The position numbers were made by a program, and so were the translations under genes. Positions 1,265-25,102 of a stretch of 26,640 bases of DNA are shown one piece after another. Below the pieces are notes generated by a model, which worked only from the letters and a program-made list of their open reading frames with translations, ran no database searches and was not told the DNA's origin. The DNA is from a virus. Where the stretch lies: positions 1 through 26,640 of IMG/VR virus record IMGVR_UViG_3300017987_000317; one strand, 5' to 3'. How positions within the stretch are numbered: the first letter of the stretch is position 1; each line of letters opens with the position of its first letter.

Positions 1265-1343
1265 TTTAATGATTCAAAAGTAAAGTTAAAGCCTACCCAC
1301 CTTGATTTATTTCGATGAGTAGGCTGTTTTATTCGATTAACGT
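1265..1343 (-). promoter_or_regulatory. Regulon promoter for the ERF/exonuclease operon
   Basis: On the minus strand the -7 element is TACTTTTG (1275-1282), matching the Bacteroidota consensus TAnnTTTG. Boxes in plus-strand sense are TTCGATGAGTAG at 1311-1322 and TTCGATTAACGT at 1332-1343, starting 29 and 50 bp beyond the -7 element. A degenerate palindrome TTTAATGATTCAAA (1265-1278) overlaps it. No TTG -33 element is visible at the usual distance. The distal boxes extend into the upstream gene-free space before the gene at 1337-1588 ends. Confidence 0.8.
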
Positions 1344-1588
1344 CTACCAAATAAATGATAGGTCGAAGTATATCCGCTTTCGCGCTCTTCCTTCCATCTT
1401 CTTTCAGAATCTTTTAATATTTCATTGTTTTGCCCCATGTAACCTGTAACATCTTCAATAGAAACAACTTCCATGCTTAGCCCCTTATCTTGTTGCTCTT
1501 GTATAACCTTCATTTCTGCCATTATTCGGCTCTCATGTGTAATGGTGTTAGTGTTACCATCTGCGAATGTGAATTTGTACCTTTTCAT
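1337..1588 (-). CDS. Hypothetical small protein under regulon promoter
   Basis: An 83-aa charged protein without recognisable domain. The frame can be read from 1615, but that start would lie at or upstream of the expected transcript start; the ATG at 1588, 25 nt after the -7 element, fits the architecture of the other regulon genes and gives MKRYKFTFADGNT. The N-terminal part looks like a beta hairpin followed by a helix rich in E, K and Q. Its own promoter (1603-1702) and a second regulon promoter just downstream (1265-1343) mean it forms a single-gene step within the early region. No terminator is visible after it, so it may also contribute transcripts to the ERF operon. Confidence 0.65.
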   Translation of the reverse strand: MKRYKFTFADGNTNTITHESRIMAEMKVIQEQQDKGLSMEVVSIEDVTGYMGQNNEILKDSERRWKEERESGYTSTYHLFGRR

Positions 1589-1602
1589 CTTGTTTGTTTT
1601 TG

Positions 1603-1702
1603 TTTGATGAATCAAAAGTAAAAAAGCGCATCAATCGACACGCCTTTTTTAGATGAACTAAGATATATTTTCGATTAACTGTCTATTTTACTCGATAAAA
1701 AT
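1603..1702 (-). promoter_or_regulatory. Regulon promoter with three 21-bp-phased boxes
   Basis: The -7 element TACTTTTG is at 1613-1620. Plus-strand boxes TTAGATGAACTA (1649-1660), TTCGATTAACTG (1670-1681) and CTCGATAAAAAT (1691-1702) start 29, 50 and 71 bp beyond it, so three copies are in exact 21-bp phase. The perfect palindrome TTTGATGAATCAAA lies at 1603-1616, overlapping the -7 element and the start-site region. The distal boxes overlap the 3' end of the upstream small membrane-protein gene. Confidence 0.82.
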
Positions 1703-1803
1703 AAGCACAGTGAATATAATGTTTCATAAACTCTACTTAAAAGCGCAAAAGGTATAGTTAATAACACAATAGCAACAAGTAACAAAACATAAACTACTTT
1801 CAT
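1675..1803 (-). CDS. Small single-pass membrane protein
   Basis: A 42-aa product starting MKVVYVLLLVAIVLLTIPFA, which is one N-terminal hydrophobic helix (roughly residues 3-22) followed by a short polar tail. Its ATG overlaps the stop of the preceding gene (ATATGA arrangement near 1800-1803), which supports translation by coupling. The 3' end of the gene overlaps two of the boxes of the regulon promoter at 1603-1702, so part of the tail sequence may be constrained by DNA binding rather than protein function. The segment could be a signal anchor or a small toxin-like membrane peptide; I cannot assign a function. Confidence 0.5.
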   Translation of the reverse strand: MKVVYVLLLVAIVLLTIPFALLSRVYETLYSLCLFLSSKIDS

Positions 1804-1952
1804 ATTTTAACCGTTTTCAATATCCTTACTTCTGCCCCTAAGTTGTTTTGTAAAGCTCTTCTCTTGCTTTCATGCTCGGCATAAAACCTATTTAAAGCAG
1901 GTATTAAAAATTGCCTTACTTCTTTGTTTACTTCAATATCTACTTGCCACAT
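1800..1952 (-). CDS. Hypothetical small protein
   Basis: A 50-aa, mainly helical and charged protein (begins MWQVDIEVNKEVRQFL, ends LKTVKI). It starts 1 nt after the stop of the gene at 1954-2181 and ends overlapping the ATG of the small membrane protein at 1675-1803. The tight packing in a run of small genes is the main support for it being real. No family recognised. Confidence 0.5.
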   Translation of the reverse strand: MWQVDIEVNKEVRQFLIPALNRFYAEHESKRRALQNNLGAEVRILKTVKI

Positions 1953-1953
1953 A

Positions 1954-2181
1954 CTAATCAATTAGCTCATTAACATCTAATTTCAATTCGTTGTATTGCT
2001 CTAAAAGTTGGTAAACTATATCTATTGTCTTATCGTCAAAACCTAAATTATTAAGCTCTTTGATTACATAAGTTTGATATTGCCAAACTGTAAGTGCTAA
2101 ATCAGTTGCATGAATAGCCCTTAACATTTCTTTATTGTCGTAACCTTCAACATCTGTATCAAATTCAATGGTTATTTTCAT
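1954..2181 (-). CDS. Hypothetical acidic protein
   Basis: A 75-aa acidic protein with a short N-terminal beta strand (MKITIEFDTDVEG) and two likely helices, one with AIHATDLALTVWQYQTYV and one with IVYQLLEQYNELKLD. The arrangement recalls small phage early proteins, but I do not recognise the family. Its start overlaps the stop of the membrane-protein gene at 2178-2561 by 4 nt, typical of this polycistronic block. Confidence 0.6.
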   Translation of the reverse strand: MKITIEFDTDVEGYDNKEMLRAIHATDLALTVWQYQTYVIKELNNLGFDDKTIDIVYQLLEQYNELKLDVNELID

Positions 2182-2561
2182 TTTAATTTACTTTTAAAGG
2201 TTACATAAGTAAAGTTAAATACTACTAAGCCCATTGCATAAGATAACCCCGCTAACATCACGTTTAAATCAAAAGCGTATAAGCACAAGGCAAATACTAT
2301 TGAGTGCCTTAGAAGCCCTGCAAAATGCCACCAATCAGTAAATGCAACTAATAAAGAAGCACTTAAAAAAAACTTTTCTTTGTACTTTGCTCCTACTAAC
2401 TCGTGATAGCTCCTGTAAATAGGGTGTAAGGTCTTAATATCTTCGAAGGGTTGCCTATACTTGTTGCGCCAATTAAAGCCTTTACTCGTGCTTAAAATTG
2501 CATCTTGCAAACCTTTTGCGGCGAAGTAGCTAAACACCAAAAGCGTTATTATCATTGTCAT
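2178..2561 (-). CDS. Multi-pass membrane protein of unknown function
   Basis: A 127-aa protein with an N-terminal hydrophobic helix (MTMIITLLVFSYFAAKGL), a soluble loop with charged and aromatic residues (about 25-65), and two or three further hydrophobic segments including FFLSASLLVAFTDWWHFAGLL and ALCLYAFDLNVMLAGLSYA. A second ATG two codons in (2555) is an equally possible start. The WWHF motif between helices is distinctive but not one I can assign. It lies downstream of another small membrane protein and overlaps it by 32 nt. A role in host membrane modification or superinfection exclusion would fit the position but is only a guess. Confidence 0.6.
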   Translation of the reverse strand: MTMIITLLVFSYFAAKGLQDAILSTSKGFNWRNKYRQPFEDIKTLHPIYRSYHELVGAKYKEKFFLSASLLVAFTDWWHFAGLLRHSIVFALCLYAFDLNVMLAGLSYAMGLVVFNFTYVTFKSKLK

Positions 2562-2712
2562 TTTTTTTGGTTATGTAAAGGTAGAAATGAAACCACAATG
2601 TAACCATGCTGTACCCTGCAATAATCACAAATTTTGGTGAATCTGTTTGGATAAAAGCTATTGTTAAAAATATGTAAGCTAAAGCAGTTGTTATGTAGGG
2701 TAAGTATCTCAT
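2530..2712 (-). CDS. Small two-helix membrane protein
   Basis: A 60-aa protein with two predicted transmembrane segments, PYITTALAYIFLTIAFI (about residues 5-21) and FVIIAGYSMVTLWFHFYLYI (about 28-47), and a polar C-terminal tail rich in N and D. It starts 2 nt after the stop of the metallophosphoesterase gene and overlaps the following membrane-protein gene, so the three appear to form one operon. No family recognised. Confidence 0.55.
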   Translation of the reverse strand: MRYLPYITTALAYIFLTIAFIQTDSPKFVIIAGYSMVTLWFHFYLYITKKNDNDNNAFGV

Positions 2713-2713
2713 T

Positions 2714-3739
2714 TTATAAACATTTACCGTTAATTATTCTAAAATTATCTACGTGAAAGCTCCCATCTTCAAAGCTATCGACCGTTGCCGCCCCATGATT
2801 CCATTTGATGTAAGCCAAAGGTGAATAATCAGGTGTTAACGTACACAAGCAACCTGTACTAAAAACGCCTATTTTGTCCCCTTTTCCCGTACCTTGATGA
2901 TGTGTACTTGTTTGGTGGAAATGCCCTAACATGGTGCTGCAAAGCATCTTGTTAAACATACCTTTTGCAGGGTTAACAGGCGAGTAAGTACCGTATATTT
3001 CGTGACCGTGCATAATGGTTAATTTGCCTAACCTTGCTATTCTTGAATCGCTTATGTACGTTATATCATTTGTTGCCAACTCCAAAACATTTTCTAAATC
3101 AAAGGTGTTTAAGTGGCTCAACTTATCGGCATTTTTCCAAAGGTGCAAACGCCATCTATTTTCATGATTGCCAAACTTGTAGTAAACCTTATCAAATAAA
3201 GTGTTTACATAGTTTAGAAATTGCTTAGTTTGGTTTATCTCGGTTTCTATTGTAAACGTTTTAATAAGTCGCGGGTCAGTAGTAAATCGAGTTGTCCAAT
3301 AATTATCCATTACATCACCATTCAAATACAACTCGGTGCAACCTTGAGCTATGCCGTAATCTAAAGCACTTTGTAAGGCTTCTTCATCGTGAAATGGTAA
3401 ATGTATATCAGATAAAACTAAGTACTTTTTACCCGTTGGAAGTATAAAGTCTTTCTTATCTTCCGCTAAACTTTGGGGTATTTTATTTGCTTTTAAGCCA
3501 TGTTTAATATCACTTTTGAAGGTGTACCCTTCTTTTACTTGGCTGCGACTCTCATCACCATGTGCGCCTGTATATGTTCTTACTTTATCCCTTACATCTT
3601 CAACATCATTGAAAAGGTCAGGATAGTCTTTGTAAATTAATCTTGCTAACCCGCTTTTTGAGATTTCCCCTTCGCGTAGTTGTTTTTCATAGTCCTTAAC
3701 AAATTGTAAAACGATTTCGCCTTTTTGTGATTGTGGCAT
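2714..3739 (-). CDS. Calcineurin-like metallophosphoesterase with N-terminal extension
   Basis: A 341-aa protein whose residues 105-280 hold all dimetal-phosphoesterase motifs in order: LVLSDIHLPF (D111, H113), NGDVMDN (G141, D142), FGNHE (N191, H192), MHGHEIYG (H244, H246) and LGHFHQ (H273, H275). Such enzymes hydrolyse phosphate mono- or diesters; in phages they occur near recombination genes, but the substrate here is unknown. Residues 1-60 form a separate helical domain with SKSGLARLIYKDYPD and VRDKVRTYTG, resembling a small helix-turn-helix or protein-contact module. The gene separates the tail block from the recombination block and has a degenerate copy of the regulon promoter upstream. 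Nuclease (SbcD-like) or protein phosphatase activity are both possible. Confidence 0.8.
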   Translation of the reverse strand: MPQSQKGEIVLQFVKDYEKQLREGEISKSGLARLIYKDYPDLFNDVEDVRDKVRTYTGAHGDESRSQVKEGYTFKSDIKHGLKANKIPQSLAEDKKDFILPTGKKYLVLSDIHLPFHDEEALQSALDYGIAQGCTELYLNGDVMDNYWTTRFTTDPRLIKTFTIETEINQTKQFLNYVNTLFDKVYYKFGNHENRWRLHLWKNADKLSHLNTFDLENVLELATNDITYISDSRIARLGKLTIMHGHEIYGTYSPVNPAKGMFNKMLCSTMLGHFHQTSTHHQGTGKGDKIGVFSTGCLCTLTPDYSPLAYIKWNHGAATVDSFEDGSFHVDNFRIINGKCL

Positions 3740-3761
3740 ATTGTTTTATTTATAGTTAGTT

Positions 3762-3831
3762 CAAAATAAACTAAATGTGATACTATAAAAATCAATAATT
3801 CGACGAATAGCCGCATATTAAAGATTAATCA
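3762..3831 (-). promoter_or_regulatory. Degenerate regulon-type promoter upstream of the metallophosphoesterase
   Basis: Plus-strand TTCGACGAATAG at 3799-3810 and AAAGATTAATCA at 3820-3831 resemble the regulon boxes and are again 21 bp apart. The nearest -7-like sequence is TATTTTG (3762-3768, minus sense), one base short of TAnnTTTG, and its distance to the box is 31 rather than 29. There is no overlapping palindrome. It is a weak sixth member. Confidence 0.4.
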
Positions 3832-4040
3832 CCAAACTTTCGCTTTAAATACTTTCTTACAAAAAACGAAACAGCCGTTAAAGCTATCGCACTACATACG
3901 CTTAAAAAAAAACCCAATATGCCGTTTATTATATCTTGAGTACTAAAATATATAACATTAGCACCTACGCTACCTACGCCTACATCTTTTAATTCATCTG
4001 CTAACTGAGCTTTTAGGTTTATAAGTTGCGATAATTTCAT
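3825..4040 (-). CDS. Small membrane protein after the tail genes
   Basis: A 71-aa protein with an N-terminal amphipathic helix (SQLINLKAQLADELKDVG), one strong transmembrane segment around residues 38-60 (IINGILGFFLSVCSAIALTAVSFF), and a basic C terminus RKYLKRKFGD. The topology, with a single helix and a positively charged tail, resembles many small phage holin-like or tail-associated membrane proteins, but the amidase lies over 20 kb away, next to another holin-like gene. It is the last gene of the structural block. Function not assigned. Confidence 0.55.
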   Translation of the reverse strand: MKLSQLINLKAQLADELKDVGVGSVGANVIYFSTQDIINGILGFFLSVCSAIALTAVSFFVRKYLKRKFGD

Positions 4041-4066
4041 TTTATTATAATTCTGTGTTTATAAAT

Positions 4067-4177
4067 TTATTTTTTTTGCTTTCTTAAGCTTAGCATGAAT
4101 TGCATTAAACCTAAAGCCCCCGCACCCGTTGCGAATGTGAACACCCTTACCAATATGTCGCTCCATTCAAACTTCAT
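4067..4177 (-). CDS. 36-aa membrane peptide
   Basis: A 36-aa product starting MKFEWSDILVRVFTFATG with one hydrophobic stretch and a basic end LRKQKK. Its ATG overlaps the TGA of the preceding gene (11 nt shared), the coupling pattern used throughout this block. It is next to another one-helix membrane protein (3825-4040); the pair may act together. No family recognised. Confidence 0.5.
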   Translation of the reverse strand: MKFEWSDILVRVFTFATGAGALGLMQFMLSLRKQKK

Positions 4178-4376
4178 CTTTTAAAATGGGATTATAATCT
4201 ATTTCTTCTAATTGTTGAAGGTCATAGTGCAAGTGCGAAAATTTAGAATCATTTAAAATTTGCTTTCCGATTATATAATTTCCTTTTTTATCTACTACAA
4301 ATTTTATTATATGAATACCTTTAGTTTGGTTTTCAATAACTTTCTTTTGTTCGTTTGTGGCTTTAAGAACTTTCAT
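4167..4376 (-). CDS. Small tail-fibre-associated hypothetical protein
   Basis: A 69-aa protein of the form MKVLKATNEQKKVIE...FVVDKKGNYIIGKQIL...LEEIDYNPI. I recall similar short proteins directly downstream of tail-fibre genes in Bacteroidota phages, where they may assist fibre assembly or cap the fibre; this is recollection, not a verified match. Its start overlaps the last base of the fibre gene at 4376-5365 and its stop overlaps the next small gene. Confidence 0.55.
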   Translation of the reverse strand: MKVLKATNEQKKVIENQTKGIHIIKFVVDKKGNYIIGKQILNDSKFSHLHYDLQQLEEIDYNPILKDEV

Positions 4377-5754: not shown

Positions 5755-5772
5755 TTTATTATTCTTTTGTTA

Positions 5773-8090: not shown

Positions 8091-10390
8091 TATCTAAGCC
8101 TTTGGTTTGTATTCTGCGCACGTTCTAAAACTATTCTAAGGTCATTGCCTGCAATTTGAGTTACTAACCTTTCATTGCCACCGCCGCCCCTGTTAATCAT
8201 CCCAAATAAGTTGGCTTGTTGGCTTCTGTTAAGTATCATCTCACCGCTGTTAACTCGTGCCATTACCCTGTCACCGCTAAATGATGAGCCGTTAACGATA
8301 CCGCCGCTTGCAAATTTTGGTACTTTACTAAATCCTGCTTTTACTGCGCTAATTGCGCCACCTATTAATATTGGCAATGCTGCAAGTCCTGCTGGACCTA
8401 ATGATACGGCTAACTTTGTACTACTTAACACACCGTTTGCCAATGATTCAGAAAGTGCAACACTTATCGCGGCTATCGCTGTTTCAATCATAACAGCTAA
8501 AAAGCCTTGTAGTCCTGTTTCGGCTAAACCCAAACCTTGCACCGCTGCCCTTCCTATTTCTTGAAAGCCGATTGCTATTGTATGGGATAGTTGCGTGAAT
8601 GTATTTGCTATTTCTTCACTTGAAAAACCTAACCGTACTAAGTTTTCATGAGTAGTTTTGCTTAATCCTTCTATTAATGGTAAAACTCTCTGTGCAGTAA
8701 CCCCAACCGTTTCTAAGGTTGTATTAAATTCACCAAATTCTATACTTGCTTGACCTACTTTTGTTAATACTTTAGCATACGCCCCCGCTGCCTTTGTAGA
8801 ATCATCAATTAAGGTGACGTTTGTTTGAGTTGTTTTATTATTTAAATTTAGTTGCTCATTAACTCTTTTTTGCGCTTCTAATAAAGTTGAAAGTTCTTCA
8901 TTATTTTCATTTAATACTTTATTACTGTAGGCAACTATACCTGCTAAATTTATCTCTTCCCTATTTAATTTAGCAAGCTCGGCTTCATTTGCCGTTATTT
9001 TTTCAATTCTAATCTCTTCAAGCCTAATCTCGGATTTTATTAAATCTATTTGAGCATTACTTATAGCTTTTATTTTTTCAGCTAACCTTGCTTCTTGTGC
9101 TTGTAATGTTATTCTTTTTACAAACTCATCATTTACTTGTTTTGTAATATCTCTAAGGTCACCTAAAGTTGTTTTTTCAGTAATTAAATTGGGTAAATAA
9201 TCTTTGTACTGAGTATTTATTCTTTCTATTACCTTTCTTTTTGCTTCATTGCTTAATGTATTACTTTGAAGTACAGTAATTTGCTTGTTAAACTCGTCTC
9301 TTAAATCGCTTAAACTGTTAGTAACTTTTTCATTACCACCACTTAAAAAACCTAATGCAGAAGAAAGACCATCTAAAACTTTTCTAACAGTATGACCAAT
9401 AAAACCTGTACCACTTTCTAATGATAAAATAAAACCATCCCATGCACTTTTTAATAATGTTAACGAACCTTGCAAAGTGTTTAACTGAGTATCAGCCATA
9501 CCCTGTGCTGTGCCTGCACTTAGTTGTAAACTTTCATTTAAAGAATCAATTTTAGATACATTTTCTGCTATTATAACACCTACTGCAGCGTTTTCTTTGC
9601 CAAATAAATCCATAGCTGTTGCGGATTTATCAGCACTATTATTTACTTGCTCTAATAATTCTTGAAATGGCACTCCACGTTTTGCGGCTTCAAGCATTAT
9701 GTTTCTTAATCCTACACCTGCCGTTTCAGCTCTTACACCATTATTTGCAAGCACACCTAACATTGCAGTAACCTTACTTAATTCTACGCCTGCATTTTTT
9801 GCCACAGGGGCTACTTGCCTTATTCCTACTTCAAACTTTCCTATATCAAGCGCACTTTCTGTAAAGGATTTTGTCATTATATCTACTACCTTTTCAGTAT
9901 CGCTTGCCTGTAATCCAAATGATTGAACAACTGAACCTGCTAAGGCTGCCGCATTAGCTAAATCTGAGCCTGTCGCCTGTGCAAGATTTAGGATTGGTTT
10001 TGTTAGATTTAAAATGTCCTGCTCCCTAAAACCTAACTTAGCTAATTCAGTCTGTAACCCTGTAACTTGGGTCGCTGTATAGGCTGTTGTAGCCCCTAAT
10101 GATAATGCGCTATCTTTTAAGGCTTTTATCCCGTCTATACTTTTACCCGTAACAGCCGCTAAATTAGCTACACTTTGTTCAAAGTCTTTAATAGTGGCAA
10201 TACCATCAGTAATTAAAGCCCCGCCTGCGAATATTGCCCCGAAACTAAAAGCACCTTGTAAACTTTTACCAATTTTAGCTAATCGGTTTTTAAAACCTTT
10301 TGCCTTTTGTTCTGCACCATCTAAGCCCTTTTGCAACTTAGATAAATCAGCTTTTATCTGTACTACTAATTCTTGGTTGCTCTGTGCCAT
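8090..10390 (-). CDS. Tail tape measure protein, TP901 type
   Basis: A 766-aa protein that sets tail length and is packed inside the tail tube. It has an N-terminal coiled coil (IKADLSKLQKGLDGAEQKAKGF), a TP901-family core around residues 60-320 (QSVANLAAVTGKS, TAYTATQVTGLQTELAKLGF, NNGVRAETAGVGLRNIMLEA), a long charged helical region, and hydrophobic segments near residues 46-66, 625-650 and 665-690 (for example LGPAGLAALPILIGGAISAV) that probably interact with the host membrane at DNA entry. At about 1.5 angstrom per residue the tail would be near 115 nm. The C terminus ends ERAQNTNQRLR, a basic tail often seen in these proteins. Its start overlaps the gpT-like frame by 25 nt. Confidence 0.92.
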   Translation of the reverse strand: MAQSNQELVVQIKADLSKLQKGLDGAEQKAKGFKNRLAKIGKSLQGAFSFGAIFAGGALITDGIATIKDFEQSVANLAAVTGKSIDGIKALKDSALSLGATTAYTATQVTGLQTELAKLGFREQDILNLTKPILNLAQATGSDLANAAALAGSVVQSFGLQASDTEKVVDIMTKSFTESALDIGKFEVGIRQVAPVAKNAGVELSKVTAMLGVLANNGVRAETAGVGLRNIMLEAAKRGVPFQELLEQVNNSADKSATAMDLFGKENAAVGVIIAENVSKIDSLNESLQLSAGTAQGMADTQLNTLQGSLTLLKSAWDGFILSLESGTGFIGHTVRKVLDGLSSALGFLSGGNEKVTNSLSDLRDEFNKQITVLQSNTLSNEAKRKVIERINTQYKDYLPNLITEKTTLGDLRDITKQVNDEFVKRITLQAQEARLAEKIKAISNAQIDLIKSEIRLEEIRIEKITANEAELAKLNREEINLAGIVAYSNKVLNENNEELSTLLEAQKRVNEQLNLNNKTTQTNVTLIDDSTKAAGAYAKVLTKVGQASIEFGEFNTTLETVGVTAQRVLPLIEGLSKTTHENLVRLGFSSEEIANTFTQLSHTIAIGFQEIGRAAVQGLGLAETGLQGFLAVMIETAIAAISVALSESLANGVLSSTKLAVSLGPAGLAALPILIGGAISAVKAGFSKVPKFASGGIVNGSSFSGDRVMARVNSGEMILNRSQQANLFGMINRGGGGNERLVTQIAGNDLRIVLERAQNTNQRLR

Positions 10391-11037: not shown

Positions 11038-11439
11038 TTATGTATTATCTGCTACGGTTAATGTTCCATCACCTGTAAAAGATGCGCTAAAACTAACAGG
11101 GGCTTCCATTTCTGCACTAAATTCTACGTTGCTCAAATAAGCCGTTCCTGTAAAATCTACATCGCCTGCTGTTGAGCTGTCAAATACAATTGTAAAACTT
11201 GAACGGTTAACTATTTCATCAGCAAGGCTTTTAACATCGTAAGTATCTGTTGGGTCATATAAGCCTTCAAATGAACCTTCCCAACTTCTTAAACCTGCTA
11301 ATACTTCTCTCCAACCGCCTGAGCCTTTGGTAGTTGTTTCAGGTAAATCTTGGTTAATTGTTATACTTGCATTAGTTGTAGAACCAACGGTAACACCGTC
11401 AATATCTACTAAGTACAACGTTCCGTTTATTTTTGCCAT
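11038..11439 (-). CDS. Major tail tube protein, TP901-1 type
   Basis: A 133-aa protein forming the tail tube. It begins MAKINGTLYLVDIDGVTVG, followed by TNASITINQDLPETTTKGSGGW, a loop pattern with strand-ending TTKGS and W-E-x-x-xG-x-Y found in the TP901-1/phi13 tail tube family, and ends with FSAEMEAPVSFSASFTGDGTLTV, the conserved final strands. No added Ig-like domain is present. It lies after the terminator-protein-like gene and before the assembly chaperones, as expected. A possible -7 element (11454-11461) lies 15 nt upstream of the ATG, which would give this abundant protein an additional promoter. Confidence 0.88.
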   Translation of the reverse strand: MAKINGTLYLVDIDGVTVGSTTNASITINQDLPETTTKGSGGWREVLAGLRSWEGSFEGLYDPTDTYDVKSLADEIVNRSSFTIVFDSSTAGDVDFTGTAYLSNVEFSAEMEAPVSFSASFTGDGTLTVADNT

Positions 11440-11453
11440 GATATTATTTTTTA

Positions 11454-11461
11454 CAAATTTA
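11454..11461 (-). promoter_or_regulatory. Possible -7 element before the tail tube gene
   Basis: Minus-strand TAAATTTG, 15 nt from the ATG at 11439. It fits TAnnTTTG, but has no -33 element or regulon box. Confidence 0.3.
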
Positions 11462-11893
11462 TTATAATTCTGTGACTTTAAATAAAACTCTAATAGCTTT
11501 GGCTAATTCAGTCTTATTACCAATTTTATTATCGTATTGTGTTATGTCTTGTAGTGTTGCGCTAAATATATTAAAATCACTATCAGCGCCTAACAAACTT
11601 TGCCCCCTGCTTATTATTTGTTCGGTCACGCTATTTACTATTTGGTCTAATAATAAAGAGCTGTAAACAGCACCACTAACCTTTGTAACGCACGTTATAA
11701 CCATTGTTACATCACTCACAAAGTCTTGCTTAGTGCCTAAGTCTAATATTGTGTTATCTTCTACCCAACAATAATAATCGGGTGGTGATTGTGGTGGGTC
11801 TGTGAACCAATAAACAGTATTACCTTCAACATCAAAGGTACTGCCTATTGTGCTGTATAATATTTGTTTTATGCTAAGGCTTGGGTTTTTCAT
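11462..11893 (-). CDS. Tail completion/terminator-like protein (gpU/DUF3168 position)
   Basis: A 143-aa protein with an N-terminal helix (SLSIKQILYSTIG), a W-F-T-DPPQSPPDYYCWVED region and a C-terminal alternating beta-alpha pattern ending in KAIRVLFKVTEL. In siphophages the gene between the HK97 gp10-like protein and the tail tube encodes the tail terminator, which caps the tube; the length and predicted mixed alpha/beta content fit. Sequence similarity itself is weak to my eye. It begins 1 nt after the previous gene's end. Confidence 0.6.
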   Translation of the reverse strand: MKNPSLSIKQILYSTIGSTFDVEGNTVYWFTDPPQSPPDYYCWVEDNTILDLGTKQDFVSDVTMVITCVTKVSGAVYSSLLLDQIVNSVTEQIISRGQSLLGADSDFNIFSATLQDITQYDNKIGNKTELAKAIRVLFKVTEL

Positions 11894-12286
11894 TTATTGG
11901 CTCATTAGTTTTATAAATTTATCATAACCTGCCCTTTGCCCTTTCTTCATGAACTTGTATTTTGGCTCATGGTATTTAGCGTAATAAGCTACTAATACAA
12001 TCGGCTTAGTATCAGGGTCTGACTTGTCTAAATCATCTTTATTTGCACCTGTTATTAATTCTTGACCGTAACCATTATCAATAGGATGAGCTACTAAAGA
12101 ACTTCTTAATCTACCTGTATCAACTAAGCCCGCATTTGTTACTGTTAGCTTTGCCACACTTTCCATTTCCTTACCCGCTATTTTCATTCGGTTCTTTATA
12201 AGAGTACTGTTTTTTGTTTTGAACTTTTTTAAATTCTTCTTAAAAGCATTCATTTCCTTTTGCGATATGGTAAGCGTTACACTCAT
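11894..12286 (-). CDS. HK97 gp10-like head-tail joining protein
   Basis: A 130-aa protein with a basic helical start (MNAFKKNLKKFKTKNSTLIKNR), then MKIAGKEMESVAKLTVTNAGLVDTGRLRSSLVAHP, where AxxxVDTGRLRxSL is the hallmark of the HK97 gp10/phage minor tail family, and a late YYAKYHEPKYKFMKKGQ corresponding to the usual Y-A-x-x-x-E motif. It connects the head completion proteins to the tail. The gene overlaps its neighbour upstream by 4 nt and directly precedes the tail terminator-like gene. Confidence 0.88.
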   Translation of the reverse strand: MSVTLTISQKEMNAFKKNLKKFKTKNSTLIKNRMKIAGKEMESVAKLTVTNAGLVDTGRLRSSLVAHPIDNGYGQELITGANKDDLDKSDPDTKPIVLVAYYAKYHEPKYKFMKKGQRAGYDKFIKLMSQ

Positions 12287-12618
12287 TCTATCCCTTGTGC
12301 TAATATCTTATAAGTAACTAAATCAACTTTATCAATACTTGTAATATGTAGCTGCCTATTATCCCAATCTACCCTATCACCTACGCCAACTGTTAAACCA
12401 TCTAAGCGCACTTTTATTTCAAATACTTCGGCATACTGCAGGCCACCTTCGCCCACGTCCATTTTTTCACTCTTAAAAGTAACATTTGCCCAACGTTCAA
12501 CGCCTGAGCCTGTGCTTAATGCAGGGTTACCATAAACATCTCTTGCACCTTCTGTTTGGCTGTAAAAAGTAACTCTAAAATCAAAGTCACCAATATTTAT
12601 TGAAGCTATTCTACTCAA
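12283..12618 (-). CDS. Head closure / head-tail adaptor protein
   Basis: A 111-aa beta-barrel type protein of the SPP1 gp16/head-tail adaptor family: FDFRVTFYSQTEGARDVYGNPALSTG, then RWANVTFKSEKMDVGEGGLQYAEVFEIKVRLDG, and GDRVDWDNRQLHITSIDKVD. The pattern of a strand, a D-x-YGNP loop, a W-A-x-V strand and a late V-x-W-D-x-R-x-x-x-I-x-S segment is characteristic. It closes the portal after packaging. The start overlaps the end of a glycosyltransferase-like gene (12611-13294) by 8 nt, an unusual neighbour for this conserved module. Confidence 0.87.
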   Translation of the reverse strand: MSRIASINIGDFDFRVTFYSQTEGARDVYGNPALSTGSGVERWANVTFKSEKMDVGEGGLQYAEVFEIKVRLDGLTVGVGDRVDWDNRQLHITSIDKVDLVTYKILAQGIE

Positions 12619-13294
12619 AACTAATATTTGGCATTAAAGATAATACTTTTTCACCTTCTACTTTTTCGCCCTGTGTTTCAAACTCTTCAAAGTTGTGTAT
12701 ATTCTCATAGCTCTTAACATCAACTATTTGCGGCTCTTTAAAATTCACTATAGTAGGTATAAACCCTGCACGAAATAATAACTTTTCACTATAATTATCT
12801 AAGCTACTTTGCTGCTTCTTATCCCATAGAGTTCCGTTAAATTTTTCTAATAATCTATGCGAATAAAGCCTACCTGCGCCTAATGTCTTGCAAACAGGGT
12901 GATTATACTTAAAACTAATAGCCTTGCCCGTGAACATTTGGTAAAAATAAAGCTCATTAGTACCTGCAAAATCTACTTTTAAAGCGTTTATTAATTCAAT
13001 GTACGCAACACTTAAAAAGTCATCACTACCCACACATAAATAATAATCGTCTTTGTGCGTTTTAATCATGTTACTTGTTAGGTAGTTCCATTTATCACCT
13101 AAGAAAGTATTAGGATATTTAACCGCGCTATCTTGCTCTCTTATAAACTCTTCTATGGCTTCAAAATCTTCTTCATCGCTATAACATAGGCTTATTGGTA
13201 AATCTAACTTTGTAGCTTCTCTTAGATAGTCTAAATGCCAAAAAAAAGCGCGTGTTAGTTCGCGCCTTCCATGTATGCAGGTAAATATTCTCAT
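12611..13294 (-). CDS. GT-A-like glycosyltransferase inside the connector operon
   Basis: A 227-aa protein with a GT-A-type layout: an N-terminal MRIFTCIHGR strand, a glycosyltransferase-like NYLTSNMIKTHKDDYYLCVGSDDFLSV with a GSDD motif at residues 89-92 (a candidate DXD-type nucleotide-sugar/metal site), and GAGRLYSHRLLEKFNGTLWD at 139-158. The same three blocks appear in the protein at 17186-17872, so the two are distant paralogues. Its start overlaps the upstream connector gene by 4 nt and its end overlaps the head closure gene by 8 nt. It is therefore produced with the late head proteins, which suggests modification of the virion. Donor and acceptor are unknown, and DNA as acceptor is not excluded. 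Confidence 0.7.
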   Translation of the reverse strand: MRIFTCIHGRRELTRAFFWHLDYLREATKLDLPISLCYSDEEDFEAIEEFIREQDSAVKYPNTFLGDKWNYLTSNMIKTHKDDYYLCVGSDDFLSVAYIELINALKVDFAGTNELYFYQMFTGKAISFKYNHPVCKTLGAGRLYSHRLLEKFNGTLWDKKQQSSLDNYSEKLLFRAGFIPTIVNFKEPQIVDVKSYENIHNFEEFETQGEKVEGEKVLSLMPNISFE

Positions 13295-13875
13295 ATCATT
13301 TGGTTCACATCCATAAACGGCTCTAATAAAAAGCGGGTGGTATTACTTAACCTGCCCACGCTTTCACCTACTACATCATTGCCCCTGTAATTATATAAAT
13401 CTGCAATCATTTTATATAATGCAGGCTCAATATTTGGGTCAACAAAATCAGCCGTTAAAGTAGCTGTTAGTATTATTTCAATCCCTGTACTCACGTAATT
13501 AAAACTACTCTTATTAATGCTAACCCTATTTTGATTAACATAATAATCTGTATTCTCAACTAATGCTTCTGTGGTGTTTTCGTACTTGTAACTAATACTA
13601 ATATTTGAGTAAGTACACCTATAAGGTATTGTTATATCTATTTGAGTGCCTTTGCTTTCAATATCATAATACCGTGCGCTTAATGTACCATCGCATAACG
13701 CCCTATTTGTCATTTGCTCGAATTGGCTTTGCGCTGCATTAGTTAAAGCAGTTATTAGAGTATTCTCAGCCGTTACGTTAGCTTCTTGCTTTAAGTAATT
13801 CTTAACCTGTGCATCAGTTAAATAATCCCATGCAGGGGTAGTTTTAGTGGCTTCAATACTATAATAAGTCTGCAT
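13291..13875 (-). CDS. Head-tail connector (gp6-like) protein
   Basis: A 194-aa protein with the helical adaptor pattern of HK97 gp6/SPP1 gp15: WDYLTDAQVKNYLKQEANVT at the start, then LITALTNAAQSQFEQMTNRAL with the conserved E-x-x-T-x-R-x-L, a beta insertion in the middle (YYDIESKGTQIDITIPY), and a C-terminal helix PALYKMIADLYNYRGND. These form a dodecameric ring below the portal. It shares one base with the preceding gene and overlaps the glycosyltransferase-like gene by 4 nt. Confidence 0.88.
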   Translation of the reverse strand: MQTYYSIEATKTTPAWDYLTDAQVKNYLKQEANVTAENTLITALTNAAQSQFEQMTNRALCDGTLSARYYDIESKGTQIDITIPYRCTYSNISISYKYENTTEALVENTDYYVNQNRVSINKSSFNYVSTGIEIILTATLTADFVDPNIEPALYKMIADLYNYRGNDVVGESVGRLSNTTRFLLEPFMDVNQMI

Positions 13876-14162
13876 TATTTTGGTGCTTTAAGGTAACACA
13901 ATACTTTACCGCTTGCCCATGTAACAGAAGTAAAATGTCCGTAAACAATACCACCCGCTATTATAGTTTCTGAGCTGCTTAGGTCATCACCATATTTAGT
14001 AACAGCCGTTACCGTGCTATCTTCTAAGGCTTGTATTGCATAAAACTCATCACCTGCATCTGTTGCGCCTGAGCTTAATACTACAAATCCGTTTTGCCCT
14101 AACACACCATCATAATAATCTGTGCTTCTTGAATACTCAGGCCTTCTTGCTGAACTTGGCAT
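13875..14162 (-). CDS. Small virion protein, probable head decoration or fibre
   Basis: A 95-aa protein with a polar N-terminal arm (MPSSARRPEYSRSTDYYDG) and a beta-rich body: FVVLSSGATDAG, FYAIQALEDSTVTAVTKYGD and IIAGGIVYGHFTSVTWASGK. This FxAIQxLEDSTxT ... GxxYGxFTSxTxASG pattern is common in small structural proteins of phages and usually reflects a trimerising beta domain. It sits downstream of the capsid gene, where decoration proteins are often found. Role inferred from pattern and position. Confidence 0.6.
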   Translation of the reverse strand: MPSSARRPEYSRSTDYYDGVLGQNGFVVLSSGATDAGDEFYAIQALEDSTVTAVTKYGDDLSSSETIIAGGIVYGHFTSVTWASGKVLCYLKAPK

Positions 14163-14163
14163 T

Positions 14164-14439
14164 TTATAATTCTTTTATTCTTTTATTTATGGCTTCTATA
14201 ACCACGTTTCTTTTTTCACCTATTAGCATTTCTTGTAATTTAGCTATTGACCTTTTACGCCCTATTTGCTCTAATAGTTCGGTGGGTATTGGCTCACGTC
14301 TTACAGGTGTTTTAATCTCTACAATAAAGCCTTTTTTAATTAGCTGTTGCGCTATTACTTCATTATAGGTGTACTTAGTGCCACGGGTTAAAACTCCATC
14401 TTTTGAATCGTGATTTTTAATAACTAAATATTCTTTCAT
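14164..14439 (-). CDS. Hypothetical head-module protein
   Basis: A 91-aa protein with an N-terminal beta segment (MKEYLVIKNHDSKDGVLTRGTKYTYNE), a helix QQLIKKGFIVEI, and a basic helical C-terminal half ending IEAINKRIKEL. The N-terminal half looks like the small beta domain (strand, turn G, Y-x-x-x-x-A-x-x-L-I-x-x-G) found in other short head-module proteins. It follows the terminator after the capsid gene, so its transcription must depend on readthrough or an unseen promoter. Confidence 0.6.
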   Translation of the reverse strand: MKEYLVIKNHDSKDGVLTRGTKYTYNEVIAQQLIKKGFIVEIKTPVRREPIPTELLEQIGRKRSIAKLQEMLIGEKRNVVIEAINKRIKEL

Positions 14440-19395: not shown

Positions 19396-19587
19396 TTAAG
19401 CGTTACCAACTATAACGCCTGTTTCAGTAAAATCAATTACAAAATCTTGCAAAAGCATATCATTCCCTAAATCATCACCTTCGTAATTTTCAATAAATTT
19501 AATCATCGCGTTAACATCACCTTGTAAAATTACTTGTGCTTGGTTTCCGTTTGATAAGTTGCAATAAATTGTTAATGTGTTGTTCAT
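19396..19587 (-). CDS. Hypothetical small acidic protein, first gene after a regulon promoter
   Basis: A 63-aa acidic protein: MNNTLTIYCNLSNGNQAQVI, GDVNAMIKFIENYEGDDLG and a C terminus with FVIDFTETGVIVG. Beta-alpha-beta content is likely. I do not recognise the family; such small acidic proteins are common among phage early proteins that bind host factors. It is the first gene behind the regulon promoter at 19606-19684, starting 29 nt after its -7 element, and leads into the sugar cassette with no terminator in between. Confidence 0.65.
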   Translation of the reverse strand: MNNTLTIYCNLSNGNQAQVILQGDVNAMIKFIENYEGDDLGNDMLLQDFVIDFTETGVIVGNA

Positions 19588-19605: not shown

Positions 19606-19684
19606 TTTGATGAATCAAAAGTAAAACAACATTTCACACCTAAGCAATGATTTCGATGAACTGCTTAATAGCTTCGATTAATAG
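19606..19684 (-). promoter_or_regulatory. Regulon promoter driving the small gene and sugar cassette
   Basis: The -7 element TACTTTTG is at 19616-19623. Plus-strand boxes TTCGATGAACTG (19652-19663) and TTCGATTAATAG (19673-19684) start 29 and 50 bp beyond it. The perfect palindrome TTTGATGAATCAAA is at 19606-19619. This copy alone has a TTG -33-like element (plus CAA 19645-19647, 21 bp from the -7). The distal box overlaps the stop codon of the minor head gene. Confidence 0.82.
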
Positions 19685-20496: not shown

Positions 20497-20511
20497 AATG
20501 CGAAGTTAATT

Positions 20512-20537: not shown

Positions 20538-20552
20538 ACACCTTAAACGTCT

Positions 20553-20801
20553 TTAAGGCTTCTTTATAATCTTTATTTTTCTACCTGTTAATTCTTCATT
20601 AAACCAAAGCCTATCTACTACAATTATTCTTTCACCTTCTTCATAGGTTTTTATTTTACACCCTTCAACATCTTCTATTAATGTAGTGAGTTCAAATTGC
20701 CCCCTACCATCGTTTTTAAGGTTATTGTTTAAAACCTTGTAGCGGTGAAACATACCTTTAAACTTAGGTATTGTAACATCTATTATTGTGCCAACTAACA
20801 T
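20553..20801 (-). CDS. Hypothetical small protein, second gene of regulon unit
   Basis: An 82-aa beta-rich basic protein. The frame is open from 20855, but the ATG at 20801 overlaps the stop of the upstream gene (ATGTTAG), and it gives MLVGTIIDVTIPKFKGMF, a sensible beginning. It continues RYKVLNNNLKNDGRGQFELTTL, then RIIVVDRLWFNEELTGRKI and ends KIIKKP. The strand/turn order resembles a small beta barrel (SH3- or OB-like), but I cannot name a family. It ends at the strong terminator 20512-20537, so it belongs to the two-gene unit from the promoter at 21026-21104. Confidence 0.65.
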   Translation of the reverse strand: MLVGTIIDVTIPKFKGMFHRYKVLNNNLKNDGRGQFELTTLIEDVEGCKIKTYEEGERIIVVDRLWFNEELTGRKIKIIKKP

Positions 20802-21010
20802 AAAATTATTATTGGCTCTGTATTTTGAATAGACACGAATGCCGAACCTGCCCAATATTCGTACAAAGAACGGTTTTTTTGCAATTCAGCCTTAGCTGTA
20901 TCAACTGTCTTAAATTTTTTAAGTATTGCTTTGCCCGCAACTATTGCGAATTTGTTACCCTTATTTGAAACCTTAGCGATGTTTAGAGTGTTTGTCATTG
21001 TTGTAGTCAT
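20795..21010 (-). CDS. Hypothetical small basic protein, first gene of regulon unit
   Basis: A 71-aa protein MTTTMTNTLNIAKVSNKGNK, with FAIVAGKAILKKFKTVDTAKAELQKNRSLYEYWAG in the middle. The TVDTAKAELQ segment is typical of a helix in small phage-encoded domains that read as strand-strand-helix (like the SPOR/DUF1508-like pattern), so it may bind protein or nucleic acid, but that is a weak impression. The first ATG is 26 nt after the -7 element and a second ATG lies 4 codons later. It is placed between portal and minor head genes but with its own promoter and terminator. Confidence 0.65.
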   Translation of the reverse strand: MTTTMTNTLNIAKVSNKGNKFAIVAGKAILKKFKTVDTAKAELQKNRSLYEYWAGSAFVSIQNTEPIIILC

Positions 21011-21025
21011 CTTTTTGTTTGTTTG

Positions 21026-21104
21026 TTTGATGATTCAAATGTATTACACCAAAACGAACTACTAAACTATTTTAGACGAACTGCGCCATAGCTTCGATGA
21101 ATTG
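21026..21104 (-). promoter_or_regulatory. Regulon promoter between portal and minor head genes
   Basis: The -7 element TACATTTG is at 21036-21043. Plus-strand boxes TTAGACGAACTG (21072-21083) and TTCGATGAATTG (21093-21104) start 29 and 50 bp beyond it. TTTGATGATTCAAA (21026-21039) is the imperfect palindrome. A partial extra box (CGAACT, 21055-21060) lies closer to the -7 element and is out of phase. The distal box ends immediately beside the portal stop codon. Confidence 0.8.
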
Positions 21105-21105
21105 C

Positions 21106-22407: not shown

Positions 22408-23621
22408 ATTACAAAGAAGTCATTATTATCTAAAAAATGCTCTACTAATCCTGTTAGTGCATCGGGTGCATCATCATGTTTATTTTTACCTTCACGGGTG
22501 TACGTGCGTAAAGCTAACATAAATTCATTATTCAAATCTTTACAAAAATAACAATTTAAAGACACGTTTGAAGAGTTGGTTTGTATCCGTGTTTTCTTAT
22601 TAGCGCTTTGGTGATAGGTGGTTATATTAGTTTTACGCCAATTAACATCGCTTAAAATACGCTGCACACTACGAGCAAAGCCACGACCACCGTTATTACT
22701 TTCTATAATAGCCCTGTTTACATTGTTGTTTATTATTAATTGAGCTACTAAACTTTCTGTTATTTCTTGTGGCTCTTTGGTGTAAACCACATCTGTAATA
22801 TAAAGGCTTGTATTAGTTTTAACGGCTGTAACAGCGCAAAGGTAATCTTCACCCGTGTCGGCTGTATCGCAATACATAACCGCTTCACCTTGTGGTAAGT
22901 CTTGATATTCTTGAAGGTTGGTGTATAAACGCCCTGTTAACGTGTCTAACCAACTACCCAACATCACATGGACATAAAGCTCGTAATCGTGCGCCTTCAT
23001 TTGTTCAGCACGTTTAATAAAGCTTTCGTGTAGATTAGTTTTATTATCTAAATATGTTGAATGAATATAAGTTACATCACCTTTAACACCATTATAATTT
23101 TCATCTACATTAGCATCTAAAAAGAACCGCTTATAAATCCAATGTTCACGCAAAGCAGGGTTAAGTATTAGAATAACCCTATTTTGTATGTTTTTTTCTC
23201 TAACACTTAAATCAATCTTATCAAATACATCGGGGCTATCTAACTCTTCAGCTTCATCTAATACCCAAGTTGTAACACCTTGCAAAGATTTTAGATTCGC
23301 CGTTTGGTTACCGCTACTTGTTTTAATTCCGCTAAATATAATTTCAGAACCGCTTGCAATGTTCTTTATTGAGTTATTAGTAACATCGAAAACATTATTA
23401 TGGCCTTGCACTTCTATTTTTTCTACAAACTCAGGTATAATAGATTTTGAAGCAGCCGTTAATGTGTAACGTGTAAATAATACTTTGTGGCCTTGCTGAA
23501 ATAATAAGTTCTCAATAAAAGTACCTACTGCATAGCTCTTTCCACTTCCCCTGCCACCTGTTACAATGAAGTAACGTGTATCATTACGCCAAAGGGGCTG
23601 AAACTTCTTATTAAGCTTCAT
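22404..23621 (-). CDS. terL: Terminase large subunit
   Basis: A 405-aa packaging motor with ATPase and nuclease. Walker A GGRGSGKS is at residues 22-29, a hydrophobic-DEAEE Walker B at 117-126 (WVLDEAEE), and coupling motif ILNPA follows. The RNase H-like nuclease has acidic residues in MYCDTADTGEDY (D252), AIIESNNGGRGFAR (E307) and KHDDAPDALTG (D383-D387). The layout fits the PBSX/SPP1-like terminase group. It overlaps the small subunit by 11 nt and the portal by 4 nt. Length is a little short but all catalytic sites are present. Confidence 0.96.
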   Translation of the reverse strand: MKLNKKFQPLWRNDTRYFIVTGGRGSGKSYAVGTFIENLLFQQGHKVLFTRYTLTAASKSIIPEFVEKIEVQGHNNVFDVTNNSIKNIASGSEIIFSGIKTSSGNQTANLKSLQGVTTWVLDEAEELDSPDVFDKIDLSVREKNIQNRVILILNPALREHWIYKRFFLDANVDENYNGVKGDVTYIHSTYLDNKTNLHESFIKRAEQMKAHDYELYVHVMLGSWLDTLTGRLYTNLQEYQDLPQGEAVMYCDTADTGEDYLCAVTAVKTNTSLYITDVVYTKEPQEITESLVAQLIINNNVNRAIIESNNGGRGFARSVQRILSDVNWRKTNITTYHQSANKKTRIQTNSSNVSLNCYFCKDLNNEFMLALRTYTREGKNKHDDAPDALTGLVEHFLDNNDFFVI

Positions 23622-23895
23622 CTACCCACTCAATAGGTTTAACGTCTAAGAAACTAACGTCAAGGCTTTTTTGCTCTTTTGGTTTTCCTAATAAATGCTC
23701 TGCAAAGAATTTCTTACCTTCCTTTTCAGTTGCAAAGTCTTTAAGGAACTCATTAACCGCTTCTTCGTCTTTATCTTGTGAGTATATTTCCCTTAACGCT
23801 CGCGTAATTCTTTCAATGGCTAAATCTTCTTTAACCTTTGGTGGCCTTCCACCTTTGTTGCCTTTTGTGCCTTTATTATTTTTACGCTTATCCAA
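23611..23895 (-). CDS. terS: Terminase small subunit
   Basis: A 94-aa DNA-recognition subunit of terminase, identified mostly by position directly upstream of the large subunit. It has a basic, Gly/Lys-rich N terminus (MDKRKNNKGTKGNKGGRPPK), a helical middle AIERITRALREIYSQDKDEE and a C-terminal FFAEHLLGKPKEQKSLDV; the GGRPPK and HLLGKPKE patterns occur in short small terminases. It has no ATG and starts with TTG at 23895, 29 nt after a TACCTTTG -7 element. The TTG start and absence of a Shine-Dalgarno sequence may keep it weakly expressed. Confidence 0.75.
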   Translation of the reverse strand: MDKRKNNKGTKGNKGGRPPKVKEDLAIERITRALREIYSQDKDEEAVNEFLKDFATEKEGKKFFAEHLLGKPKEQKSLDVSFLDVKPIEWVDEA

Positions 23896-23923
23896 ATCAG
23901 TTTAAAATTAGTTAACTGAATAT

Positions 23924-23931
23924 CAAAGGTA
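23924..23931 (-). promoter_or_regulatory. Promoter -7 element for the terminase/portal operon
   Basis: Minus-strand TACCTTTG fits TAnnTTTG, 29 nt upstream of the TTG start and directly after a terminator hairpin. It lacks the regulon boxes and the palindrome, so it is likely a late-class promoter. Confidence 0.6.
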
Positions 23932-23938
23932 ATAAAAT

Positions 23939-23973
23939 AAAAAAAAGCCCCGTACATCACAGACATACAGGGC
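23939..23973 (-). terminator. Hairpin terminator before the terminase genes
   Basis: Minus-strand stem GCCCTGTA / TACGGGGC (8 bp with one G-T pair; plus 23947-23954 and 23966-23973) with an 11-nt loop is followed by eight T. It separates the upstream small genes from the terminase promoter. Confidence 0.85.
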
Positions 23974-24006
23974 ACAAACAAAACTCTATTAAAAAAACGT
24001 ACTCAA

Positions 24007-24321
24007 TCACTTGACATTATCATATTTTTGCGCTAACTTCTTGTTTTCTTTTATAAGTTGATTCTCTCTATGGTTAAAGCACTCTTTTAAATCGTAGTAG
24101 TATTTAGTTTCATAACCCAAAATCATATTAAAATATTCGTGCAATGATTTAAACGGGTTACGCCTTTTAAAATATTCAGCATAAGCCAAAGGGCAATTAA
24201 TCTGAGCATAACCTAACACGCTTGTTCTTCTCATTGTGTTGGCTCGGCAAAACTCGATAGTATCCTTAATGTTTTTGATTTCTTCGGGTGCTAAGTGGCT
24301 ATGGTGGTGTAAGGTTTTCAT
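24007..24321 (-). CDS. Hypothetical His/Tyr-rich helical protein
   Basis: A 104-aa largely helical protein: MKTLHHHSHLAPEEIKNIKD, a segment with FCRANTMRRTSVLGYAQINC, and a C-terminal coiled-coil-like end RENQLIKENKKLAQKYDNVK. The two Cys and the His cluster at the N terminus could bind metal. No family is recognised. It is flanked by the hairpin at 24334-24362 upstream and the terminator at 23939-23973 downstream, so its transcription relies on readthrough or an unseen promoter. Confidence 0.6.
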   Translation of the reverse strand: MKTLHHHSHLAPEEIKNIKDTIEFCRANTMRRTSVLGYAQINCPLAYAEYFKRRNPFKSLHEYFNMILGYETKYYYDLKECFNHRENQLIKENKKLAQKYDNVK

Positions 24322-24333
24322 AGGTTTTAAAAA

Positions 24334-24362
24334 CCACCTTTCAGTGTTATTCTAAAAGGTGG
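24334..24362 (-). terminator. Hairpin terminator of the small-gene unit
   Basis: Minus-strand stem CCACCTTT / AAAGGTGG (8 bp) with a 13-nt loop is followed by five T. It lies 45 nt after the stop of the gene at 24408-24668. Confidence 0.78.
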
Positions 24363-24407
24363 CTGCACAAGCATTAAAGGTTTTAAGGTTATAAAAAATT
24401 TAATTAA

Positions 24408-24668
24408 TTACAAAAAATCTTTGATTAGCAATCCTATTAAAACTCCTAAAAAAACACATATATAAAATTCAAATGATTTTATGGAAATTAATTTATGGCT
24501 GTAATGTTTTTTACCTAATTCAAAGTAGTAAAGTTCTTTCTCTTTTATCTTCTCTTCAAAGAAATTAGTCAAAGCCCAATCAGGTGCTTGTTTATAAGGA
24601 AATTTAAGATGTGGAAAGTTTACTTTTAACTCTGTATATAGTTGGCTTTTTTTCTTTTTTAAATCCAT
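24408..24668 (-). CDS. C-terminally anchored hypothetical membrane protein
   Basis: An 86-aa protein with a basic start (MDLKKKKSQLYTELKVN), a middle with APDWALTNFFEEKIKEKE and a C-terminal hydrophobic segment FEFYICVFLGVLIGLLI near residues 66-82 with a short tail KDFL. The topology is a tail-anchored cytoplasmic domain. Its ATG lies inside the stop region of the gene at 24659-24820, so translation is coupled. It is the last gene of the unit starting at 25013 and precedes a hairpin terminator. Function unknown. Confidence 0.6.
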   Translation of the reverse strand: MDLKKKKSQLYTELKVNFPHLKFPYKQAPDWALTNFFEEKIKEKELYYFELGKKHYSHKLISIKSFEFYICVFLGVLIGLLIKDFL

Positions 24669-24820
24669 TCTACTTTACCATTTGAGCATTCTATATAAAC
24701 TTTACCTATTAAACCAAATTTGTTTTTTAATTCATGTGCTTTTTGTAACGCTTGATTAAATGAGTGGAAGCTGTTAAACTCCCACTCAAATATTTGATTC
24801 TTAATTTTATACAGGTGCAT
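24659..24820 (-). CDS. 53-aa hypothetical protein
   Basis: A 53-aa product beginning MHLYKIKNQIFEWEFNSFHS, with FNQALQKAHELKNKFGLIG in the middle and VYIECSNGKVEWI at the end: strand, helix, strand. It overlaps the end of the gene at 24807-25013 by 14 nt and the start of the next by 10 nt, which supports it as a real member of the unit. No family recognised. Confidence 0.55.
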   Translation of the reverse strand: MHLYKIKNQIFEWEFNSFHSFNQALQKAHELKNKFGLIGKVYIECSNGKVEWI

Positions 24821-25013
24821 TTGAAACTTTATTTACGTTAAATACTTGCTTAATTAACTCTATTTCGCTTGCACCGTAAAACTTTATCATTGTTGCCCAC
24901 TTACCACTTGTTTCGCCAAACTTTGACCATAAAACTTTACCGCCATTTGTTTTAGAGTGAAATTCGTTGATTTGGTTTTGTGTTGCTTCTGTTTCAATTA
25001 CTAAATAATTCAT
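24807..25013 (-). CDS. Hypothetical small protein, first gene after a regulon promoter
   Basis: A 68-aa protein MNYLVIETEATQNQINEFHS with GGKVLWSKFGETSGKWATMI and SEIELIKQVFNVNKV. A small alpha-beta fold is likely, but I recognise no family. The ATG is 21 nt after the -7 element. It is the first of three overlapping small genes (to 24408) that end at the terminator 24334-24362. Confidence 0.65.
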   Translation of the reverse strand: MNYLVIETEATQNQINEFHSKTNGGKVLWSKFGETSGKWATMIKFYGASEIELIKQVFNVNKVSNAPV

Positions 25014-25023
25014 TTTGTTTGTT

Positions 25024-25102
25024 TTTGATAAATCAAATGTAAGGCAAGATTTAAAGGCTGTGAACTTATTTCGATGAACTAAGCCTTTGTTTCGATGAAC
25101 TG
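25024..25102 (-). promoter_or_regulatory. Regulon promoter of the small-gene unit near lysis genes
   Basis: The -7 element TACATTTG is at 25034-25041. Plus-strand boxes TTCGATGAACTA (25070-25081) and TTCGATGAACTG (25091-25102) start 29 and 50 bp beyond it and are the most similar pair in the window. The perfect palindrome TTTGATAAATCAAA is at 25024-25037. No -33 TTG is visible. The boxes overlap the 3' end of the small gene at 25079-25234. Confidence 0.85.

Follow-up and report, generated by a model that had tools for sequence, protein, structure and literature searches.

Which protein reads a set of phased boxes that recurs before the promoters of an uncultured phage, and which genes do these promoters serve? 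We address this question for a 26,640-bp viral contig (IMG/VR record IMGVR_UViG_3300017987_000317, positions 1 to 26,640; hereafter the window), in which nearly all genes lie on the minus strand and five leftward promoters share one layout. Each consists of two 12-bp boxes (consensus YARTTNRTCGAA) in 21-bp phase, followed by 28 bp, a TAnnTTTG element at -7 and a short A-rich leader. Comparison with related phages and with bacterial chromosomes makes it likely that the paired boxes are sites for a LytTR-family response regulator, through which a host LytS-type kinase/LytTR system would activate exchangeable phage accessory genes.

The five box pairs and -7 elements listed in the original prediction are all present, and all belong to leftward promoters. 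They are given below as promoters A to E, together with their first genes and a candidate sixth site.

25091..25102, minus strand: promoter A, distal box CAGTTCATCGAA
25070..25081, minus strand: promoter A, proximal box TAGTTCATCGAA, 21 bp from the distal box
25034..25041, minus strand: promoter A, -7 element TACATTTG, 28 bp after the proximal box
24807..25013, minus strand: promoter A, first gene, 68 amino acids, no known function; unrelated genes take its place in relatives
21093..21104, minus strand: promoter B, distal box CAATTCATCGAA, directly past the stop of the portal gene
21072..21083, minus strand: promoter B, proximal box CAGTTCGTCTAA
21036..21043, minus strand: promoter B, -7 element TACATTTG, 28 bp after the proximal box
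20795..21010, minus strand: promoter B, first gene, 71 amino acids, no known function; differs among relatives
19673..19684, minus strand: promoter C, distal box CTATTAATCGAA, overlapping the stop of the Mu F-like gene
19652..19663, minus strand: promoter C, proximal box CAGTTCATCGAA
19616..19623, minus strand: promoter C, -7 element TACTTTTG, 28 bp after the proximal box
19396..19587, minus strand: promoter C, first gene, 63 amino acids; behind a different boxed promoter in relative G019
1691..1702, minus strand: promoter D, weak third box ATTTTTATCGAG
1670..1681, minus strand: promoter D, distal box CAGTTAATCGAA
1649..1660, minus strand: promoter D, proximal box TAGTTCATCTAA
1613..1620, minus strand: promoter D, -7 element TACTTTTG, 28 bp after the proximal box
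1337..1588, minus strand: promoter D, first gene, about 83 amino acids from its ATG, no known function, variable
1332..1343, minus strand: promoter E, distal box ACGTTAATCGAA
1311..1322, minus strand: promoter E, proximal box CTACTCATCGAA
1275..1282, minus strand: promoter E, -7 element TACTTTTG, 28 bp after the proximal box
964..1254, minus strand: promoter E, first gene, about 96 amino acids, followed by a gene for an ERF-family single-strand annealing protein (432-962)
3799..3810, minus strand: candidate sixth promoter, one good box CTATTCGTCGAA, 29 bp ahead of TTATTTTG (3769-3762)

The arrangement of the boxes, and not their mere presence, sets these promoters apart. The strict pattern of two boxes, 21 bp, 28 bp and TAnnTTTG occurs four times in the window and in none of 150 first-order simulated windows, which bears out the earlier view that the spacing exceeds chance. 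Lone boxes with up to three mismatches show no enrichment (46 observed, 40 expected), and significance is thus confined to the paired, phased arrangement. The third box that had been placed at 1691 in promoter D is indeed there, but as a weak match. At the candidate sixth site (3810-3762), which lies upstream of a metallophosphoesterase gene (2714-3739), the box is kept in relatives G004, G002 and G019. The box contains no palindrome of at least 6 bp, and its strongest invariant positions are 8, 9, 11 and 12 (TC.AA).

Downstream of the boxes, the promoters are of the Bacteroidota sigma-70 type, which is defined by a TAnnTTTG -7 element, a short leader and no Shine-Dalgarno sequence. All five window promoters have the -7 element and a short A-rich leader, with the ATG 20-28 nt beyond TAnnTTTG. 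Four of the five lack a TTG near -33, exactly as first reported; promoter C (box start 19684) carries ATTG 21 bp ahead of its -7 element.

Clade contigs were found by pattern scans of the viral collection and by a terminase search, and 15 of them were read alongside the window (16 records). When box pairs up to 120 bp apart were collected from these records, 50 of the 55 pairs were 21 bp apart, one was 42 bp and four were 63 bp apart; no other distance was found. We then took as distinct promoters the paired sites with TAnnTTT(G/A) 20-35 bp downstream, 39 in all. The gap between box and -7 element is 28 bp in 33 of them and 29 bp in the other six. The spacing to the -7 element, described in the original prediction as an invariant offset of 29 bp, is therefore fixed within the window but not across the relatives. 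No -33 element is present in 28 of the 39 promoters. A matrix trained on the ten window boxes alone, the scan that had been proposed at the outset, recovered new, non-orthologous sites of the same geometry (14422, 8739 and 308 in G004; 3751 in G002), and the layout is retained in the divergent relative G017, whose terminase is 79% identical. One further site with this layout (10168 in L115, IMGVR_UViG_3300043395_000981; 29 bp, TATATTTG, ATG nearby) lies on a contig reached solely through the pattern and is possibly an independent case.

Both ends of the 27,153-bp G004 contig lie in the structural region, and it has early genes that the window lacks; by our estimate the two contigs together cover nearly the whole composite genome of about 35 kb. 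Random placement of boxes in the rest of the genome would have spoken against a regulatory role. Instead, strong pairs stand before genes with the same geometry, and in the window and G004 all of them are on the coding strand. The few pairs that lack a -7 element at 28 or 29 bp are G004 8282 and G004 11395. The first of these and the site at 8739 are near-identical copies of one promoter that flank small genes, as would be expected if an accessory gene had come in together with a duplicated promoter; the 8282 copy is the one without a -7 element. At G004 11395-11458, and also in G003, G019 and G021, three to four boxes in 21-bp register lie within the 3' end of an HTH_39 winged-helix gene with no -7 element at 28 or 29 bp. 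The G004 boxes at this place coincide with QFNE/ELTE/QFIE codons, such that coding and regulatory constraint are inseparable. Outside the clade, the nearest cultured terminase, that of Nonlabens phage P12024L, is 48% identical and box pairs are absent from that phage; a search for an isolate belonging to the clade found none.

A second shared element follows the -7 element, namely TTTGA-N4-TCAAA and then an A/C-rich leader (ATCATCAAACAAACAAA). In the window it occupies 25033-25014, 21035-21011, 19615-19588 and 1612-1589, and it is also found in relatives. TCAAA lies within 11 nt of the -7 element in 31 of the 39 boxed promoters versus 11 of 310 other TAnnTTTG sites. It might serve as an operator that covers the start site, or as a translation leader.

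The same architecture occurs in bacterial chromosomes. We scanned GTDB genomes for the box pair alone, requiring no -7 element, and obtained 101 stretches, from which 80 loci were analysed (34 Bacteroidota and 46 non-Bacteroidota). In the Bacteroidota loci, some of which are orthologous so that the counts are not all independent, TAnnTTT(G/A) lies 28-29 bp past the proximal box in 12 and 38-39 bp past it, one helical turn more, in seven, with only six elsewhere between 0 and 149. None of the 46 non-Bacteroidota loci has this element at 28, 29, 38 or 39. A search of 396 Bacteroidota genomes with the full architecture gave seven matches, each with a gene start close downstream, and the reversed control pattern gave none. 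Box pairs in Flavobacterium (L148, L183, L200 and L202) precede large secreted proteins, and there the -7 element (TAGCTTTA where read) is one turn further away than in the phages. Two sets of matches were set aside. The Winogradskyella matches (L160/L186) reflect coding sequence at a LytTR gene's 3' end that resembles the boxes by coincidence, and were dropped as evidence; the Nostoc loci (L135, L138, L171 and others) are unrelated 21-bp tandem repeats (TTGTTAGTCGAAACAATCGCA) with a chance match to the box pattern.

The chromosomal sites are associated with LytTR genes. Among 12 host genomes with sites of the 28/29 geometry, a LytTR gene lies within 5 kb in 10, against 0.36 expected; with orthologous sites merged, seven of nine lie within 5 kb (P about 2e-10), although these probabilities presume random placement and are indicative only. 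The sites often stand at kinase-LytTR operons, and near-identical boxes are found in the operons' own promoters in Mucilaginibacter and Parafilimonas. In Parafilimonas (L164), the boxes are followed after 29 bp by TAGCTTTA, then by genes for a LytS-type His_kinase (PF06580) and for a LytTR-domain (PF04397) response regulator. Parafilimonas terrae (L170) has the same arrangement, with LytTR about 1.6 kb downstream. In Mucilaginibacter (L157), the kinase again precedes LytTR, and inspection by eye shows a third, in-phase box and a 29-bp gap before TACTTTAG. At L278-L280 the site has a divergent kinase-LytTR operon on one side and a target gene on the other, and at L277 it heads an operon of an acyltransferase gene, a second gene and a response-regulator gene, with LytTR at the end. 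LytTR genes are present in 23 of 27 sampled Bacteroidota genomes. A literature search for a study of these boxes in Bacteroidota found none.

Published LytTR sites have comparable geometry. They comprise two direct repeats of 9-11 nt with 11-13 nt between them and have no common consensus (PMC4847170). Repeats of 9 bp with 12 bp between them drive autoregulation in streptococcal and other systems, where they lie mostly 10 bp upstream of -35 (PMC6193735), and AgrA sites are centred near -60 (PMC4227749). The 12-bp phage boxes have the same repeat phase of about 21 bp. If a 9-bp core ends at box position 8, its distance to the -7 element is 32-33 bp, and the published distance from LytTR site to -10 is about 33 bp (10+6+17; PMC6193735). 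The sites of AgrA, YpdB and HdrR/BrsR thus share with the phage and host boxes a pair of direct repeats phased at 21 bp and placed immediately before a promoter, and those systems also resemble them in autoregulated operons and weak or suboptimal -35 elements (PMC4847170, PMC6193735, PMC4227749). Unlike those sites, the box described here extends to TCGAA on its 3' side, the -7 element is the Bacteroidota TAnnTTTG, and the sites are scattered over a phage genome in which no LytTR protein is detectable. The published phase and the host association together support the original proposal of activator-dependent promoters with LytTR-like sites.

A LytTR protein encoded by the phages themselves was sought and not found. 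Pfam searches for LytTR (PF04397) gave no match at E<=10 in clade records (8 records, then 9). A host LytTR profile run with hmmsearch --max against all open reading frames of the 16 clade records gave a best E of 0.15, outside any annotated gene. A 99-amino-acid early protein was considered as a cryptic LytTR, and its AlphaFold model (helix, four strands, helix) had a predicted local distance difference test score (pLDDT) of 59.6, too low in confidence to be used. Because no LytTR domain was found in the phages, a host LytTR regulator is the most likely activator.

The main rival to this host regulator is a small helix-turn-helix (HTH) protein of the phage. The phages encode an 81-amino-acid Cro/CI-type HTH protein and a 79-amino-acid HTH_39 winged-helix protein, and either of these, or an unrecognised small early protein, might bind the boxes and turn on middle or late promoters. 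The two candidate genes are grouped in the early region of G004 (11378-12160), the 81-amino-acid protein has a remote homologue in the divergent G017 (30% over 56 amino acids), and many phages run phased promoters with an activator of their own. Yet in bacterial chromosomes this box pair, equally far from the -7 element, occurs beside LytTR genes, the phage records yielded no LytTR-like protein, and Cro/CI-type dimers usually bind palindromes, which the box lacks at 6 bp or more. We therefore regard a phage-encoded activator as unlikely, though it deserves more weight than the other alternatives. A literature search for phages with LytTR-activated late genes found none.

It is quite improbable that the boxes belong to a different kind of host activator with 21-bp direct repeats of its own, for instance an AraC/XylS-type regulator such as the hybrid two-component systems controlling SusC-like genes. 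Several marine host sites do lie upstream of genes for SusC-like TonB receptors, and half-sites of the AraC/XylS family can be 21 bp apart. On the other hand, AraC-type half-sites are bipartite over about 15-17 bp, whereas here 12 contiguous bases are conserved, and the host sites cluster at LytTR operons. Least probable of all is that the sites are repressor operators or that the boxes are by-products of coding or duplication with no regulatory role: several boxes do overlap the 3' ends of genes and the Winogradskyella class is a coding coincidence of this kind, but repressors rarely act upstream of the -33 region, where these sites are located, a -33 element is absent from most of the promoters, and phasing and distance are kept though spacer sequence and downstream genes change.

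Under control by a host LytTR regulator, one LytTR subunit would occupy each 12-bp box, with the two subunits two helical turns (21 bp) apart on one face of the DNA. The predicted activator would be centred near -56 and would help RNA polymerase of the Bacteroidota sigma-70 type at TAnnTTTG promoters, most of which have no -33 element. Its most probable source would be a host LytS-type kinase/LytTR system, which the phage would use to turn on exchangeable accessory genes lodged between core genes in promoter "slots". Binding, activation, the host system from which the regulator comes and the timing are what we infer. Several points weigh against this interpretation. Invariant positions 8, 9, 11 and 12 fall partly outside the LytTR core GTTN(A/G)(T/G) given in the original prediction, and only 30 of 57 boxes fit that core strictly (48 of 57 with A or G allowed at position 3). 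For two of the 12 host sites the closest LytTR gene is 5.5 kb away. The host association comes from a search seeded with the phage boxes and covers regulons with those boxes. Finally, the contigs are fragments, and a divergent phage-encoded activator therefore keeps a small probability.

The genes behind the boxed promoters change from phage to phage. Neither this exchange nor the counterpart of the layout in bacterial chromosomes was part of the original prediction. First genes are mostly short, variable and of no known function, and they fall into 31 sequence clusters. In the portal slot, the first gene product begins MTTTMTNTLN... in the window, MKKVYIYTFA... in G004 and MTNYQKTKEL... in G007, and four different genes follow the Mu F slot. 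Conversely, the window gene at 19396-19587 occupies the Mu F slot in the window and stands behind another boxed promoter in G019. Orthologous promoters thus head different first genes, and one gene is found behind different promoters; the units lie between core genes, vary among relatives and have their own promoters, as in morons and other accessory slots. Most boxed promoters are slots of this kind, with downstream genes that differ between relatives. Some head larger or core-like genes, such as the G004 helicase/methyltransferase (promoter at 14422) and the genes at the window promoter that adjoins the ERF recombination gene. The G004 (L092) gene at 12160-14328 encodes a 722-amino-acid protein that combines an SNF2/DEAD-type helicase with an N6/N4 DNA methyltransferase domain.

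In logic, the proposed scheme is closest to that of cyanophages in which the host's PhoB/PhoR two-component system controls phage genes (PMC10976474). In both cases phage promoters carry sites for a host response regulator, predicted ones in this clade. The cyanophage PhoB sites lie at genes raised under phosphate stress and are backed by gel shifts, whereas the predicted LytTR-type sites here lie at many slots for accessory genes of no known function. Clostridium phage phiCDHM1 is likewise tied to agr-type signalling, whose regulator AgrA is a LytTR protein; phiCDHM1 is reported to carry agr quorum-sensing genes, whereas this clade has only cis-acting sites (PMC3901668). Phage morons, too, are short, variable and placed between core genes, and each unit brings a promoter of its own. 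Unlike morons, the slots described here share one upstream regulatory code, and one host signal could switch all of them together. LytTR-type sites spread across many exchangeable accessory-gene slots would be a new form of such regulation.

For an uncultured phage group, these results provide a regulatory code that can be put to the test, and they also yield a signature of LytTR-linked Bacteroidota promoters: two YARTTNRTCGAA boxes 21 bp apart, with TAnnTTTG following after 28-29 bp or after one additional turn. We lean slightly toward the view that this Bacteroidota phage lineage has placed dispersed, exchangeable accessory genes under one host LytTR system, such that a host envelope or density signal would set the expression of the whole set during infection. 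If so, a host sensor rather than the phage's internal clock would govern the accessory genes, and the slots would account for the immediate expression of newly acquired ones.

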